From: Pseudomonadota bacterium | GTDB lineage: Bacteria; Pseudomonadota; Gammaproteobacteria; Burkholderiales; Thiobacillaceae | NCBI GenBank assembly: GCA_030691265.1 | Contig: JAUYET010000045.1 | Coordinates: 1 to 49,640 of the forward strand | Direction of reading: 5' to 3' | Length of the DNA: 49,640 bases | Shown here: in pieces, positions 33,097 to 40,021 of the stretch | How the letters are laid out: each line of letters opens with the position of its first letter | Position numbering within the stretch: the first letter of the stretch is position 1 | Notes under the pieces: model-generated | Database searches by the model: none | What the model saw: only the letters and a program-made list of their open reading frames with translations | Told to the model about the DNA's origin: nothing | Made by a program: the position numbers and the translations under genes

Positions 33097-33112
33097 TGGT
33101 ATGTTTTTTGCT
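33097..33112 (+). promoter_or_regulatory. Sigma-54-type promoter
   Basis: TGGTATGTTTTTTGCT matches the -24/-12 pattern: GG and GC separated by exactly 10 bp, with TGG and TTGCT boxes. Transcription would start near 33123, leaving a leader of about 29 nt with GGAG before ATG 33152. A possible activator site, TGGTTTCGCTACCA (33037-33050), lies upstream. Confidence 0.65.
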
Positions 33113-33151
33113 TACTATTGGGCAGACAGCCATATACTTTGGAGAATCACA

Positions 33152-33820
33152 ATGAGCGACAAAACGAATTCCACCTTGCCTGACGAACTGGATGCCGCGA
33201 AGACCGGACAGGTCGACGAATCCCGCCGCCGCCTGGCCAAGGTCGGCATCGCCGGTTCCGGCGTCATCCTCACCCTGGCCAGCCGCAGCGTGCTGGGCGG
33301 TTGGGGAGTCTGCACCGGTTCCGAGATCATGTCCGGCAACCTGTCCAAACCCGGTGACGCCAATCCCTGCGGCTGCAGTCCGGGGTATTGGGGCAACCAG
33401 AATGGCTATGCCACCTGGATGGCTCAACTGGGCAATCTGATCAGTTCCAGCCACGCGCCGACGGCCCTGTTCAATACCGTATTTGGGGTGACCTTCTTCG
33501 GCCCGAACACGGGCAGCGCACTGACCACCTACGGCCCCAACGTGACCCTCTGGCAGGCCGTGCACGACAAGCAAAGCACGACCCCCATCATCACGTGCAA
33601 GGGAAACAACCAGAACGCCGCATTCCACGCCGTGGCGGCACTGATGAATGCATCGGTGTACGGTTCCCGCTATCCGGTGCCTGCGGGCTACCAGACTCCC
33701 GCCGGCGTCATCAATATGTTTTCCGCCGCTGCAAGCAATTGCACCCTGGAAGATTTCGTCACCATCGTCGACATCTACGGCAAGGTGTCGGACATGTGGT
33801 GCTTCGGCGACCGGGAGTAA
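33152..33820 (+). CDS. Putative exported target protein of the HPr-rel-A cassette
   Basis: A 222-residue protein of unknown function. After a polar N-terminus, SRRRLAKVGIAGSGVILTLA (24-43) looks like a twin-arginine leader: arginines at 25-27, then a hydrophobic stretch. The mature part has CGCSPGYWGNQNGY (73-86), a motif seen in secreted surface proteins, and six cysteines (54, 73, 75, 149, 197, 217). It is the first gene behind the sigma-54-type promoter and 9 bp before the PqqD-like gene. Inferred: it is the substrate or product on which the three following proteins act. Confidence 0.6.
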   Translation: MSDKTNSTLPDELDAAKTGQVDESRRRLAKVGIAGSGVILTLASRSVLGGWGVCTGSEIMSGNLSKPGDANPCGCSPGYWGNQNGYATWMAQLGNLISSSHAPTALFNTVFGVTFFGPNTGSALTTYGPNVTLWQAVHDKQSTTPIITCKGNNQNAAFHAVAALMNASVYGSRYPVPAGYQTPAGVINMFSAAASNCTLEDFVTIVDIYGKVSDMWCFGDRE

Positions 33821-33829
33821 ACGGGAGAC

Positions 33830-34102
33830 ATGTCTGAAGCCTGGGCGCTGGCGCGGTCCGACATCGGCCTGCGCTGCTGGGAGGATGGCTGTATCGCCTA
33901 CCAGCCCCTGACTGGCGAAACCCACATGCTCACCCCACAGGCAGGTCGTCTGCTCGACCTGCTACGGGAAGATGGCAGAACCACCGAGGCGTTGATGTCC
34001 GAACTGGCTGACGGCGCCGCCCCGCCCGAACTCGCCGAAGCCTTGAACACCTGGCTGCTGCAGTTGTCCGAGGCCCGTCTGATCTGCCGGCTTCAGTCTT
34101 GA
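33830..34102 (+). CDS. PqqD-like protein of the HPr-rel-A system
   Basis: Ninety residues with a PqqD-type winged-helix layout (ITYQPLTGETHMLTP-like region, read here as IAYQPLTGETHMLTPQAGRL, then LLDLLREDGRTTEALMSEL). PqqD-like proteins carry peptide substrates to modifying enzymes. A GGGAG site precedes ATG 33830. The stop overlaps the kinase start (TTGA at 34099-34102). Confidence 0.78.
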   Translation: MSEAWALARSDIGLRCWEDGCIAYQPLTGETHMLTPQAGRLLDLLREDGRTTEALMSELADGAAPPELAEALNTWLLQLSEARLICRLQS

Positions 34103-35007
34103 TCCTCGCCCAGATTCCCGCATCCGAACTGCGCACACGCCTGGCCCGTGGCCACCTGGCGCTACAGGTCGGGCCATTTCGTTTCCGCGTGACCTCGCCT
34201 TTAGCCTCCGTAAGCGAGGGTCTAGCCACCCTCTACCCCGATTTCGAACTGGTGGCGGAGGATGAATTCATCGACTTCCATGTCAGCGTGACACCGCCCG
34301 CCGGTGTGCGCCGCTGGATTCGCCCGCAGGCGAATTTCTCCTTCGACGGGCGCGTGCCGTTCAAGCCGCTGCCGGCCGACCAGGCCATGCCCATGCTGGA
34401 ATGGGGCCTGAACTGGGTGATCTCCAATCACGCGCACCAATACCTGATGCTGCATGCCGCGGTGGTGGAGCGAAATGGGCGGGCGATGATCCTCCCGGCC
34501 CCGCCCGGCTCCGGCAAGAGCACCCTGTGCGCCGGCCTGGTGAACCGGGATTGGCGACTGCTATCCGACGAACTGACCCTGATCCGGCTGACCGATGGCC
34601 TGGTCGTTCCCATTTCCCGGCCGGTGAGCCTGAAAAACCGCTCCATCGAAATCGTGCGCGGTCTGGGCAGGCATGTGGTGGTGGGGACGCCCTGTGCCGA
34701 TACCGGCAAGGGCACCGTCGCGCATATGCGGCCGCCGACCGACAGCGTGCGACGCATGGCAGAACCTGCCCGCCCGGCCTGGGTGGTGTTCCCCCAGTTC
34801 ATCCAGAACGGCGAGCCGACCTGTGAGGCGCGCGGCAAATCCACGGCCTTTGTCGAACTGGTGCATAACGCCTTCAACTACAACCTGCTCGGACTGGCCG
34901 GGTTCAATGCCCTGAGCGGCCTGGTGGATGCCTGCGATGTCCATCGCATCACCTACGGCAGCCTGGAACAGGCCTACACCGCCATCGACGCGCTGACCGG
35001 GGAATGA
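34099..35007 (+). CDS. HprK-related kinase A
   Basis: A 302-residue protein with an HPr-kinase-like P-loop (PAPPGSGKSTLCAGL, about residues 134-148) followed by WRLLSDELTLIR, which resembles the Walker B/catalytic strand. No HPr or PTS gene is nearby, so it belongs to the HPr-rel-A type of cassette and not to carbon regulation. The start is TTG 34099, inside the stop of the PqqD-like gene. The phosphorylated target is unknown. Confidence 0.82.
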   Translation: MILAQIPASELRTRLARGHLALQVGPFRFRVTSPLASVSEGLATLYPDFELVAEDEFIDFHVSVTPPAGVRRWIRPQANFSFDGRVPFKPLPADQAMPMLEWGLNWVISNHAHQYLMLHAAVVERNGRAMILPAPPGSGKSTLCAGLVNRDWRLLSDELTLIRLTDGLVVPISRPVSLKNRSIEIVRGLGRHVVVGTPCADTGKGTVAHMRPPTDSVRRMAEPARPAWVVFPQFIQNGEPTCEARGKSTAFVELVHNAFNYNLLGLAGFNALSGLVDACDVHRITYGSLEQAYTAIDALTGE

Positions 35008-36140
35008 TGCCCGCCGAACAAATTAAATCCCCTGTAAATAGCCGCCCGATGGCCCATTCGGACCTGGTTGTTACCCTGCTGCGCGAGCCTGGCAACGCCG
35101 CCGGGTTTTCCACCAGCGAATGGGATCTGCTCGTGCGTCAGGCGAGGCACGCCGATGTCATGGGGCAACTGCATGCGCGGCTCAGCGATGCCGGCCAACT
35201 CGGCAACCTGCCCGAGGCCGCGCGCCGGCATCTGGACACCGCCTGGAACCTGTCCCAACGCCACCGCCTGGCGGTGCGCTGGGAACTGCTCGGCATCGCC
35301 AACACCCTCGCGCCGCTGAACATTCCCGTCGTACTCCTCAAGGGGGCGGCCTACTATGCGGCCGGCCGCATGGCGGCCAGGGGACGCTTGTTCACCGATG
35401 TGGATATCCTGGTACCCAAGGCTGCGCTGGACTCGGTGGAACGGATATTTATCCGCAGCGGCTGGGTGCCGACCCACCTGAATGCCTACGACCAGCGCTA
35501 TTACCGACAATGGATGCATGAGTTGCCGCCCATGCAGCACGCCCGCCGCGGCACGCTGATCGACATCCATCACACCCTGCTGCCGCCGACCACCGGGGTG
35601 AATTGCGACGCCGCCGCGCTGATCGCCGCCGCTCAGCCTCTGGAGGATGCCGAGCTGGCTGCCTTCAAGGTGCTCGCGCCAAGCGACATGCTGTTGCACT
35701 CTGCGACCCACCTGTTTTACGGGGAATTCGACCGCGGCCTGCGCGAACTGGTGGACCTCGATCAATTGATTCGTGAACTCGGGACAGAGCCAGATTTTTG
35801 GGCGGCAACCGTAGACCGCGCCCGGCAGTTGGACTTGCTGAACCCGCTGCACCATGCCGTGCGCTATACCCATCTGCTGCTGGGCACACCGATTCCGGAC
35901 GTGGTATTGCGGGCGCCGCTCGACCCGACCATCGATGCCATCCGGCAGCGCCTGCTGGATGCGCTATTTCTGCGTGCGTTCAGACCGGATCACGTCAGTT
36001 GCAACGATGCCGCCACCCGACTGGCCCGCTGGCTCGCATTTGTCCGCAGCCACTGGCTGCGGATGCCGGTCCACCTGCTCGTGCCGCACCTCTTCTACAA
36101 GGCGGTAATCGCCCCGCGCAAGGAAGCAGCCGGGGCCTGA
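35004..36140 (+). CDS. Nucleotidyltransferase-family protein of the HPr-rel-A system
   Basis: A 378-residue protein of the PF14907-like group. The nucleotidyltransferase core is visible in VVLLKGAAYYAAGRMAARGR and FTDVDILVP (about 111-142), with the DVD metal-binding pair. DIHHTLLPP supplies a later conserved stretch; the C-terminal half is helical. The start at ATG 35004 overlaps the kinase stop. Homologues occur beside peptide-modification and exopolysaccharide genes. The gene ends 13 bp before the convergent fbp. Confidence 0.8.
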   Translation: MMPAEQIKSPVNSRPMAHSDLVVTLLREPGNAAGFSTSEWDLLVRQARHADVMGQLHARLSDAGQLGNLPEAARRHLDTAWNLSQRHRLAVRWELLGIANTLAPLNIPVVLLKGAAYYAAGRMAARGRLFTDVDILVPKAALDSVERIFIRSGWVPTHLNAYDQRYYRQWMHELPPMQHARRGTLIDIHHTLLPPTTGVNCDAAALIAAAQPLEDAELAAFKVLAPSDMLLHSATHLFYGEFDRGLRELVDLDQLIRELGTEPDFWAATVDRARQLDLLNPLHHAVRYTHLLLGTPIPDVVLRAPLDPTIDAIRQRLLDALFLRAFRPDHVSCNDAATRLARWLAFVRSHWLRMPVHLLVPHLFYKAVIAPRKEAAGA

Positions 36141-37235: not shown

Positions 37236-38189
37236 TTATTGCGTGGTCAGTTGGTCGGAACGGGTGAATGTCCAGCTCCGCGTGATGCCCAGAATATCGA
37301 CCTTCTTGCGCAGGGCCTCGGGAAAACGCGGAAACGGCGCCGACATTTCCACGATCTTCATGGCGGCGGCATCCAGCACTTTCGAGCCGGATGAACGCTC
37401 AATCTGAATCGATTCGATCTCGCCGTTATCGAAGATGTTCACCGTCAGAATCAGCGTGCCGTAGAGACTGTTGCGTTTGGCCGCTTCCGGGTAATTCATG
37501 TTGCCGACGCGCTCGACCTTGATGCGCCAATCTTCCACGTACTGCGCGAAGGTGAATTCCTGCGCGCGCGCACCGACAAACATCCGCCTTGGCCGTTTCT
37601 GGTACTCGTCGCGTTGCTGGTCGATACGCGCCTGCAACCGCGCCATTTCCAGACTGCGCGTGGCCAGATCGAGCGGCGCCGGAGTCGGCGGGGTTGGAAT
37701 AGGCGAGCGCGGATCGGCAACCGGCACGGGTTTCTGCTCCGGCACCTGGTAATCCGATTTGATCTGCTGCATCAGCGCCTTGGTTTTCTGTTCCAGCGCC
37801 TGCACACGCGCGTTGAACTCGGCCTCCGCACTCAACGTCTGGTCGCGTTCGGCCGCCGGCAGCGGCGATTTGGCCTGACGGTTGTCATCGACATTGCCGC
37901 CGCCGTCGAGATTCGCCTGCGCCAGCACGTCGGCCTGCAACGGTTTTGCCTTGGTCTTGGCGTTGACCAGCACCACGTCGATCGGCGGCGAGATGTTCTC
38001 GAACAGCTTCGGGTTGGCGGCCGTGAACTGCAAGCCAAAGATAAACAGCACATGAATGATGGCCGCGATCAGGAGCGCCTGAGTAAAGCGATCATCCCAG
38101 TCGGCTGAAGTCTGCGGCGCGTAAGGAAACGGCGCCACGACCTCAGTCAGGACATCCTTCAGGCGGCGGACTGGGCCAGAAACCGACAT
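37236..38189 (-). CDS. TonB-like energy transducer
   Basis: A 317-residue protein with one membrane helix (about 36-55, ALLIAAIIHVLFIFGLQF), a proline- and lysine-rich periplasmic stretch (EQKPVPVADPRSPIPTPPTP) and a C-terminal TonB domain (YPEAAKRNSLYGTLILTVNI, then FPRFPEAL). No exbB/exbD is adjacent. The start overlaps the RNB gene by 31 bp; a GTG 36 bp later is an alternative. Confidence 0.85.
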   Translation of the reverse strand: MSVSGPVRRLKDVLTEVVAPFPYAPQTSADWDDRFTQALLIAAIIHVLFIFGLQFTAANPKLFENISPPIDVVLVNAKTKAKPLQADVLAQANLDGGGNVDDNRQAKSPLPAAERDQTLSAEAEFNARVQALEQKTKALMQQIKSDYQVPEQKPVPVADPRSPIPTPPTPAPLDLATRSLEMARLQARIDQQRDEYQKRPRRMFVGARAQEFTFAQYVEDWRIKVERVGNMNYPEAAKRNSLYGTLILTVNIFDNGEIESIQIERSSGSKVLDAAAMKIVEMSAPFPRFPEALRKKVDILGITRSWTFTRSDQLTTQ

Positions 38190-40021
38190 GTCAGATCGTT
38201 GTCGAGCAGGTCGATATCCGCCACCGCCACACGAATCCGCTCACCCGGATTCAACGTCGGCGCGCCGACGACTTTGGCGACGAAGGGCAAGCCATCCAGC
38301 CGGATCAGGTTTTCGCGCCAGACCGAGGCGTCGATCTCCTGGATGCCTTCTTGTTGCAACCAGCGCAAGCACCAGTAACGCTCCATGCTGCGCTGGAAAT
38401 CGTTGTAGGCATCGTAGGCGAGTTCGAAATCGCGCACGGCGGCGAACAGCATGGTGTCATTGCCGGCGTGCGGCGGCGTTTCTTCGCGCGCCACGGCCAG
38501 AATCTGGCGTTGATTCAGCAAATCGACGTAACGCCGCAGCGGCGACGTGCTCCAGGTGTAATGCGCGACGCCGAGGCCTTCGTGCGGCGCGGGCTTCAAC
38601 GTCATGCGCACCTTGCCGCCGGTTTGCGCGCGATAAATGCCGGCCACATTGCGATCCGCCAGCATGCCGCCCCAGCGGCTGTTGGCCAGTATCATCATTT
38701 CCGAGACCAGTTTGTCGATCGGGTTGCCGCGCTGGCGCGGCACGATGTCGACGCGTTCCGCGTCCTTTTCACCACTCACCTTGAACACGTAATCGTGGCG
38801 CTGCACTTGATCCGCCTTGCCGCGCCCGATTTCGAGTTGCTTGGCGAAACCGAACAGCCATTCCAGTTCGCGCCGAAACGGGTAGTCGTTGCCGCGTGGT
38901 TGCCCTCCCTCGCCGATGGTGGCCTCATTGAACAAGGGTTCCAGCGTCTCATGCCGCAGATTGGCGGCGATGCGGATCGAATCGGCCTTGGTGGACAGGC
39001 TCTGGATGGCGTAATCCGGCCCGACTTCGACATACAGCGACAGCGCCGGGCAATCGCGGTTCTCGGCCAGGGTGTACTGCTCGATGAGATCGCCCGGCAG
39101 CATGGTGATCTTGTCGCCCGGCATATAGATGGTGGACAGCCGCGTCGCCGCCAGCTTGTCGAGATCGGAACCGGGCGTGATGCCGAGCGCCGGCGCGGCG
39201 ATGTGGATGCCGACGCGGACCGAACCATCGTCACGGAAGATCACCGAAAACGCATCGTCGATCTCGGTGGTGGAAGCATCGTCGATGCTGAATGCGGGCG
39301 CATCGCCGGCCGGCAACTCGGGCGGCGGCAACGGCGCGGCCAACGCAGGGAAAGCCAGGCCGCGCGGGAAATGCGTCAGCAGGAAAGCCTGGCGATGGAA
39401 CTCCAGGCTGGAAGGAATCGCGCCGCACTTGTCGAGCAGGCGCACCGCAGAAAGATTGGTTTCGGCGCAGGCATCCGACAGCGCCTTGAATTCCAGGCTG
39501 TTCTTGTCCGGCTTGTGCGCCAGCTCGAACACCTTGGCGCGCATGGCCTCCGGCAACTCGCTCTGCACCAGCATGGCGACCCACTCGGCGCGCAACGCCG
39601 CCTCGCGCGCCTTGCGTTCCAGGCCCAGTTTGGCCGCCGCCAGGTTTTCCGCCGGCGCCGCCTTGTAGCGGCCTTTGCCTTTTTTCTGGAAATAGATCGG
39701 CGCCTGATGCAGCGCCAGCACGATGGCGGTGGATTCCGGCGCGGCGGGTTTGTGGCCGAAATACTCTTGCGCCAAGGCCTCGAAGCCGAACTCCTCGCTG
39801 CCTGCGACTTCCCAGAGGAAATCCAGATCGAGTTCTGTGCGCAGCGCGCGTGCGCTGTCCATCACCTGCGCCGGCGCCGGCGCGGTATAGCGCAACAACA
39901 CATGCGCCGCCTTGAGCTTGCCGCGCTTGCCGTGTTGGGATTCGATTTGCAGCGAACTGTCTTGGTCCGCCAGGATGGTGCCGGCTTTGATATCGCCGTC
40001 TTCTTCGTAAAGAACGTACAT
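38159..40021 (-). CDS. RNB-domain ribonuclease (RNase II family)
   Basis: A 620-residue 3'-5' exoribonuclease. The RNB catalytic block is FSIDDASTTEIDDAFSVIF (about 240-258), with its ordered aspartates, followed by RVGIHIAAP and YMPGDKITMLP. The region GNPIDKLVSEMMILANSRWG and LRRYVDLLNQRQILA complete the domain. The protein is shorter than RNase R and lacks an obvious second cold-shock domain. It is co-transcribed with the YqiA-like and TonB-like genes. Confidence 0.9.
   Translation of the reverse strand: MYVLYEEDGDIKAGTILADQDSSLQIESQHGKRGKLKAAHVLLRYTAPAPAQVMDSARALRTELDLDFLWEVAGSEEFGFEALAQEYFGHKPAAPESTAIVLALHQAPIYFQKKGKGRYKAAPAENLAAAKLGLERKAREAALRAEWVAMLVQSELPEAMRAKVFELAHKPDKNSLEFKALSDACAETNLSAVRLLDKCGAIPSSLEFHRQAFLLTHFPRGLAFPALAAPLPPPELPAGDAPAFSIDDASTTEIDDAFSVIFRDDGSVRVGIHIAAPALGITPGSDLDKLAATRLSTIYMPGDKITMLPGDLIEQYTLAENRDCPALSLYVEVGPDYAIQSLSTKADSIRIAANLRHETLEPLFNEATIGEGGQPRGNDYPFRRELEWLFGFAKQLEIGRGKADQVQRHDYVFKVSGEKDAERVDIVPRQRGNPIDKLVSEMMILANSRWGGMLADRNVAGIYRAQTGGKVRMTLKPAPHEGLGVAHYTWSTSPLRRYVDLLNQRQILAVAREETPPHAGNDTMLFAAVRDFELAYDAYNDFQRSMERYWCLRWLQQEGIQEIDASVWRENLIRLDGLPFVAKVVGAPTLNPGERIRVAVADIDLLDNDLTCRFLAQSAA

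Follow-up and report, generated by a model that had tools for sequence, protein, structure and literature searches.

A four-gene HPr-rel-A cassette with a Tat-type leader protein as its candidate substrate

What does an HprK-related kinase act on when its gene stands in a cassette with those of a PqqD-like carrier, a nucleotidyltransferase and a protein with a conserved leader? The question is raised by positions 33152–36140 (+ strand) of a 49,640-nucleotide stretch, here called the window, which comprises positions 1 to 49,640 of contig JAUYET010000045.1 from a Thiobacillaceae bacterium (Pseudomonadota; assembly GCA_030691265.1; 2.02 Mb, 117 contigs, 58% complete). Four codirectional genes lie there between prmC and an opposing fbp gene. 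They encode a 222-amino-acid (aa) protein whose leader resembles a twin-arginine translocation (Tat) signal, the carrier, the kinase and the nucleotidyltransferase. The kinase and carrier families have names but no described substrate in the literature searched, and they gain here a strong substrate candidate, a leader motif and two candidate serines. We read the four genes as a protein-modifying system that combines leader-guided phosphorylation, capping and Tat export, and give this statement as a whole a probability of about 0.6.

The partnership between the 222-aa protein, recognisable by an SPGYW motif, and the kinase is tight across genomes. Among 61 relatives, all 25 genomes with an SPGYW-type protein fall within the 31 that hold the kinase over its cut-off (Fisher p 1e-11, a value inflated by phylogenetic non-independence). 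In a sample of the window's order (n = 300), 39 of 41 matches to the profile of SPGYW proteins lie in the 50 kinase-positive genomes. The other two (G142, G216) have the SPGYW domain only, in frames of 1046 and 1301 aa, as has one of the 39 (G102), on a contig other than the kinase's. A phylum-wide sample (n = 349) places 24 of 27 matches in 58 kinase-positive genomes, 22 of them beside the kinase; of the remaining three, two have only the domain, and the third is a weak match to the leader (E-value (E) 8e-4, 610-aa frame). A preliminary description of this DNA had proposed such co-occurrence as a check that could cut either way, and the outcome is strongly positive.

Individual loci give the same picture. 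We examined 76 kinase regions, 75 fetched plus the window, which were hand-picked from the search lists, partly for a missing match. A leader-matching open reading frame (ORF) lies within 2.6 kb of the kinase in 68 of them, in 61 of these at E < 0.01, and most profile-negative kinase-positive genomes examined by region have a leader gene of a second class, described below. Another set, the named loci, comprises those 80 out of 281 whose kinase is most similar to the window's, and for that reason leans to close relatives. Every one has a gene with the leader, the domain or both beside the kinase (both in 74, the leader alone in 5, the domain alone in 1), and 79 have a nucleotidyltransferase nearby. 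Within these loci, of up to 8.9 kb each, no leader match at E up to 0.1 occurs away from the gene neighbouring the kinase. In the genomes G006, G011 and G016 two substrate genes lie near one kinase. The four genes almost certainly form one system.

Leader genes also occur in other arrangements. Two lie on contigs other than the kinase's (L251:5074-6064 in G448 and L250:1200-1760 in G407), the one in L251 directly preceding a PqqD-like ORF, and these may be orphan substrates served in trans. At L234 (G460) leader gene and carrier are divergent from the kinase, against the usual codirectional order. The region L205 (G019:C18), fetched for its substrates and kept outside the 76, has two adjacent SPGYW-type genes on a contig without a kinase, and the kinase of G019 lies near the end of another contig. 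The weak leader match in a 610-aa frame (E 8e-4) mentioned above lies at L252:3634-5463 in G618, a genome in which the kinase search gave no match.

Which parts of the 222-aa protein are under constraint? Its Tat-like leader (S24-R25-R26-R27-L28-A29-K30 ... L48-G49) is followed by a C54...S65 motif and C73, and then by a helical domain with SPGYW at residues 76–80. The SPGYW motif had been noted before; the accompanying label "cysteine-rich" is generous for 6 cysteines in 222 residues. The protein has no NCBIfam or Pfam match at E ≤ 10, and an alignment of 57 SPGYW proteins (A1) gives only scattered single matches to these databases. For A1 we took ORFs matching the SPGYW profile at E < 1e-10; removal of duplicates and of ORFs cut by a locus end left 60, and removal of two ORFs of L026 and one of L061 left 57. 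Its only invariant columns are R25, R26, S57 and S61, the two serines standing directly behind the presumed cleavage site, and M1, L42, S65, C73, W89 and N166 are conserved at 90% or more. In one alignment of relatives C73 is kept in 93% and C54 in 98%, yet C54 is not among the A1 columns that reach 90%. Only for the SPGYW class are S57 and S61 invariant, since L061 (G051) has the leader without domain or motif.

Signal peptides are usually less conserved than the proteins they export. Here both substrate classes show roughly twofold higher conservation in the leader than in the remainder, with a mean pairwise identity of 50% against 24.5% for the domain in the SPGYW class and an identity of 43% against 22% in the second class; this is the pattern of a recognised leader. 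Sequence features of a Tat substrate are found, namely an RR motif (RR-x-[LFIMV] in 25/25 SPGYW-class and 41/43 second-class leaders), a hydrophobic stretch and an AxA-like site (signal-peptidase-like residues at −3/−1 in 24/25 and 34/43).

Behind the leader, serine patterns were counted in the named loci from one RR per ORF, placed by the leader profile, which succeeded for 75 of 78 ORFs. S-x3-S is present in 74 of these 75, compared with 43% of shuffled windows; for the stricter S[GASET]xxS[GNA] the figures are 60 of 75 and 7%. The stricter motif is present in 52 of the 57 A1 proteins and in none of six domain-only proteins. A regular expression including the cysteine, C-x2-S[GASE]-x2-S, matched only 33 of the 78 ORFs, because the spacing between cysteine and serine varies.

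The SPGYW domain itself was considered as the mark of a substrate and rejected, as it occurs alone in six of six large or secreted-looking proteins examined. These six have no leader match and no stricter serine motif, and two of them come from kinase-positive genomes (G022, G102). Their frames (L241-L246) range from 299 to more than 2500 aa, with the domain in the form [TS]-x-GYWK ... LLN-like; some carry repeats and look adhesin-like by eye, and L245, the sole one scanned, has no Pfam match at E 0.01. A model of the substrate predicts an all-helical protein with a mean predicted local distance difference test score (pLDDT) of only 67, and a fold search with it gave a best match of only E 4.6. 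Searching solved structures by sequence with the substrate and with the nucleotidyltransferase returned nothing useful.

The second substrate class retains the leader, in the form RRR-x-LLKG-x-AAG-x-P-x-I-x-TL-x-SG-x-ALA, in front of a different and shorter C-terminal part; the median distance from RR to stop is 145 residues, against 203 in the SPGYW class. It occurs mostly outside the window's order, with some loci inside. Its alignment omits L173, doubtful by eye, which is still counted in the 68 of 76 regions. The first cysteine is common to both classes (88% and 86%), and the sequences make serine phosphorylation plausible in both.

The preliminary description had recognised an HPr-rel-A cassette, and both diagnostic families agree: the carrier scores 56.8 bits with TIGR04353 (cut-off 35) and the kinase 398.2 bits with TIGR04352 (cut-off 200). 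With the Pfam PqqD model the carrier reaches 21.1 bits, slightly below the cut-off of 23.4, and the nucleotidyltransferase scores 181.9 bits with PF14907 (cut-off 31.2). Kinase residues H119, G137, G139, K140, D157 and E158 are invariant in 26 of 26 sequences (A2). Aligned to the HprK of 1jb1 (E 0.18), the kinase keeps the histidine, the Walker lysine and the aspartate, and a glutamate replaces the second aspartate in all 26. In the nucleotidyltransferase K113-G114, D132-x-D134 and D187 are invariant in 20 of 20 (A3). Its model has a pLDDT of 91 and matches MenT1 best in Foldseek (E 4e-4), with aminoglycoside nucleotidyltransferases as weaker fold matches (E 5e-3 and weaker). Natural fusions of carrier and kinase in G032 (547 aa; PqqD part 22.6 bits, just under the Pfam cut-off of 23.4) and of kinase and nucleotidyltransferase in G506 (708 aa) support joint action of the enzymes. 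Our purpose-built carrier profile had taken in a fused kinase ORF, and its matches on kinase ORFs are disregarded.

From these parts we infer the following mechanism. In the cytoplasm the PqqD-like protein would bind the conserved twin-arginine leader of the 222-aa protein and present the segment just behind it to the HprK-related kinase, which would phosphorylate a conserved serine, S57 or S61, once or several times. The nucleotidyltransferase would then cap the phosphate with a nucleotide or a sugar. The modified protein would leave by the general Tat pathway, with signal peptidase cutting after VLG, and the variable C-terminal domain, here the SPGYW domain, would be the cargo, with a probable role in the cell envelope or the exopolysaccharide (EPS) matrix. 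Judged from the sequences, the kinase probably phosphorylates the protein and Tat export is likely as well, while capping by the nucleotidyltransferase stands at even odds.

An earlier label for these genes was "modifying and export system". The carrier, the two nucleotide-using enzymes and a dedicated substrate candidate bear out the first half; an exporter in the cassette does not appear. We clustered neighbouring genes from 77 regions by blastp (ORFs of at least 110 aa, a setting that diverged families could escape). With the cassette kinase, the nucleotidyltransferase and antisense shadow ORFs set aside, no cluster spans more than 24 of the 77 regions. The largest, in 24, is asparagine-synthase-like, and one scanned member is an XrtA-type amidotransferase over cut-off. 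No peptidase or transporter family stood out among the shared neighbours, 10 of 59 clusters being annotated. As neither the cassette nor a widespread neighbour cluster supplies an exporter, export would use the general Tat route, and since that pathway and signal peptidase are proposed to serve, the cassette would need no exporter or peptidase of its own.

Several points weigh against this account. Its evidence is sequence alone, and no modification has been seen. An SPGYW-profile match at E 0.001 is missing in 11 of the 50 kinase-positive genomes of the order sample and in 34 of the 58 of the phylum sample; 8 of the 76 kinase regions have no leader match, and 7 more have one only at E 0.01–0.6. 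The serines of the SPGYW class align with no serine of the second class, in which 72% have a serine at alignment column 38, so that a single site for the whole family is not established. The bare S-x3-S also occurs in three of the six domain-only proteins and is thus weak taken alone. The [YW]xxP leader motif of lasso peptides and of linear polyphosphorylated peptides (LPP) is found in 1 of 25 SPGYW-class and 1 of 43 second-class leaders. The nucleotidyltransferase step is the weakest, because its counterpart LppN had no effect in the LPP study, as far as the available part of that report goes (PMC13381572). Of the twin-arginine leader in the preliminary description, the RR pattern stands (57/57 in A1), but the TIGR01409 profile (TAT_signal_seq) matches one of the 57 leaders, at E = 0.16, and leaves the window protein unmatched; the case for Tat export consequently rests on the RR pattern.

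Three other explanations were weighed. The leader might be a recognition leader of the kind found in ribosomally synthesized and post-translationally modified peptides (RiPPs), merely resembling a Tat signal, and the product might leave by another route or stay inside. Plain signal peptides are not usually so much more conserved than the remainder, 56 of 57 leaders escape TIGR01409, and 10 of the 43 second-class leaders have a charged residue in the hydrophobic core; yet the RR-x-[LFIMV] pattern, the hydrophobic stretch and the −3/−1 residues fit a Tat signal, and no transporter or peptidase family stands out among the shared neighbour clusters annotated (10 of 59). We regard this explanation as unlikely. 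Nor do we expect that the cassette is a regulatory system in which a kinase/phosphatase like classical HprK targets an HPr-type protein and the SPGYW protein is the output. The kinase's remote kinship with HprK, in which H, K and D are retained, lends it some credit, but the classical model TIGR00679 gives 21 bits where 240 are needed, the second catalytic aspartate is a glutamate throughout, and no HPr family is among the 10 of 59 shared neighbour clusters annotated. It appears very improbable.

The genomic setting suggests a further possibility: the kinase and the nucleotidyltransferase may have exopolysaccharide precursors as their substrates, and the secreted protein would then be a matrix protein regulated together with them. 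Exosortase XrtA is present over cut-off in 27 of the 31 kinase-positive against 3 of the 30 kinase-negative genomes among the 61 relatives. In 39 of the 76 regions the kinase has a neighbour related to the XrtA/PEP-CTERM/EPS seeds; four of these regions count through a PrsR-like regulator alone, possibly an unrelated NtrC-type protein. The PqqD fold, however, is a peptide-binding element, and the kinase is accompanied more constantly by the leader gene than by such EPS-related genes (68 of 76 regions; 80 of 80 named loci). The XrtA link is not obligate, because the near-complete genomes G020 and G033 have the cassette without XrtA; no XrtA/PEP-CTERM/EPS-related gene lies near the cassette in the window, and XrtA was not found in the window's own genome, which is 58% complete. 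A polysaccharide target seems quite unlikely to us, and leader-guided modification of the 222-aa protein remains our preferred reading.

Coordinates are collected in Table 1. The preliminary description began the cassette at 33097, 55 bases before the likely start codon, and its remaining extent is confirmed; an alternative ATG upstream at 33101 would lengthen the N-terminus by 17 aa. The carrier, kinase and nucleotidyltransferase genes overlap as it had described, by 4 bases at each junction. Upstream lie hemA, prfA and prmC and downstream fbp, and since these named flanks are housekeeping genes the cassette seems free-standing in the window. The further neighbours scanned are an RNase II-like gene and three others without a match at E 1e-20. 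A promoter scan returned 0 sites, and searches among viral contigs and plasmids were unproductive. The RNase II/R-like protein (38162-40021, − strand; 620 aa) reaches at best 106 of 542 bits, far under the equivalog cut-offs, and its gene adjoins one for a 317-aa protein that matches no NCBIfam model at E 1e-20.

Table 1. Features of the cassette, in window coordinates
Feature	Position	Strand	Remarks
Candidate substrate gene	33152..33820	+	222 aa, ATG start (ORF list)
Leader, ~residues 23-50	33218..33301	+	RR motif, hydrophobic stretch, probable signal peptidase site after VLG
C54-T-G-S57-E-I-M-S61-G-N-L-S65 motif, candidate phosphorylation site	33311..33346	+	S57, S61 invariant in A1
PqqD-like carrier / RiPP recognition element gene	33830..34102	+	90 aa; TIGR04353
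HprK-related kinase A gene	34099..35007	+	302 aa, TTG start; TIGR04352
NTP_transf_5 nucleotidyltransferase gene	35004..36140	+	378 aa; PF14907

What would such a system mean? Tentatively, at something short of even odds, the cassettes may stand for a class of phosphate-capped exported proteins that is large, not yet described, and present in Pseudomonadota and in at least one genome of Thermodesulfobacteriota. A RiPP recognition element (RRE) would here read a Tat signal peptide, the same leader would recruit both kinase and nucleotidyltransferase while still in the cytoplasm and then serve as the export ticket, modification would be proof-read before export, and the products would belong to exosortase- and EPS-linked surface biology. 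If so, phosphate-bearing RiPP-like products extend beyond Bacillota to Pseudomonadota and at least one Thermodesulfobacteriota genome (Malonomonas rubra), and RREs become linked to Tat export and to exosortase-associated surface polysaccharide loci.

How does the cassette compare with known systems? By NCBIfam its kinase and carrier are members of the HPr-rel-A system, whose model names give no substrate; the leader-bearing partner lies outside NCBIfam and Pfam families. In the literature searched no paper came up for HPr-rel-A, HprK-related kinase or PF14907, nor for exosortase combined with PqqD or HPr kinase. SPGYW gave only matches unrelated by title, and TIGR04352, TIGR04353 and HprK-like names led to the LPP work alone (PMC13381572). 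The chemistry had been called undescribed, which holds for this family in that literature, but not for the enzyme trio, described in lasso and LPP systems.

For the lasso peptides paeninodin and pseudomycoidin, the parts of the sources available to us report that the HPr-kinase homologues PadeK and PsmK phosphorylate a serine (PMC9266682, PMC8498205). PsmN, annotated as a nucleotidyltransferase, is connected with one or two hexoses carried by the phosphoserine; whether it is the glycosyltransferase itself is left undecided in the review (PMC9266682). An HprK-like kinase, a nucleoside triphosphate (NTP) transferase and a separate RRE (B1) are shared with the present cassette. The lasso systems differ in having a macrolactam cyclase and a B2 protease and in modifying the C-terminal serine of a short peptide; no cyclase, B2 protease or short precursor is found in the cassette or the scanned window neighbours. 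The kinase motif is H-K-D-D there and H-K-D-E here.

The closer parallel is LPP of Bacillota (Popov et al. 2026; PMC13381572), for which we draw on the part of the text available to us. These clusters combine a discrete RRE, an HprK-like kinase and an NTP transferase with precursors of 35-200 aa, whose N-terminus is conserved and whose C-terminus is highly variable. LppK places up to four phosphates on core Ser3, and an S3A substitution abolishes phosphorylation; the leader peptidase processes the unmodified precursor poorly, and deletion of lppN caused no detectable change. LPP are described as restricted to Bacillota and often lie in capsule loci. The terms twin-arginine, Tat, Proteobacteria, Pseudomonadota, PqqD and exosortase do not occur in that text.

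The present cassette shares the enzyme trio by domain type, the LppB, LppK and LppN sequences not having been compared directly, and also the conserved N-terminus with a variable C-terminus. Phosphoserine lies near the mature N-terminus in LPP, where the candidates S57 and S61 would sit here, and the capsule setting of LPP has its counterpart in the frequent exosortase/EPS loci. There are also differences. LPP leaders carry a YxxPxVLxHQxIxFETxxS motif, against a twin-arginine-like leader here. LPP clusters include a SipW-like peptidase and an MsbA-like transporter, neither of which is in the window's cassette or scanned neighbours, nor among the annotated shared clusters of the other regions (10 of 59); and LPP belong to Bacillota, whereas these cassettes are mostly in Pseudomonadota. 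Because the leader motif and the peptidase and transporter genes do not correspond, we do not file the cassette as an LPP member; it is best read as a system that works like LPP but uses a Tat-type leader, occurs mostly in Pseudomonadota and lacks a peptidase or transporter of its own.

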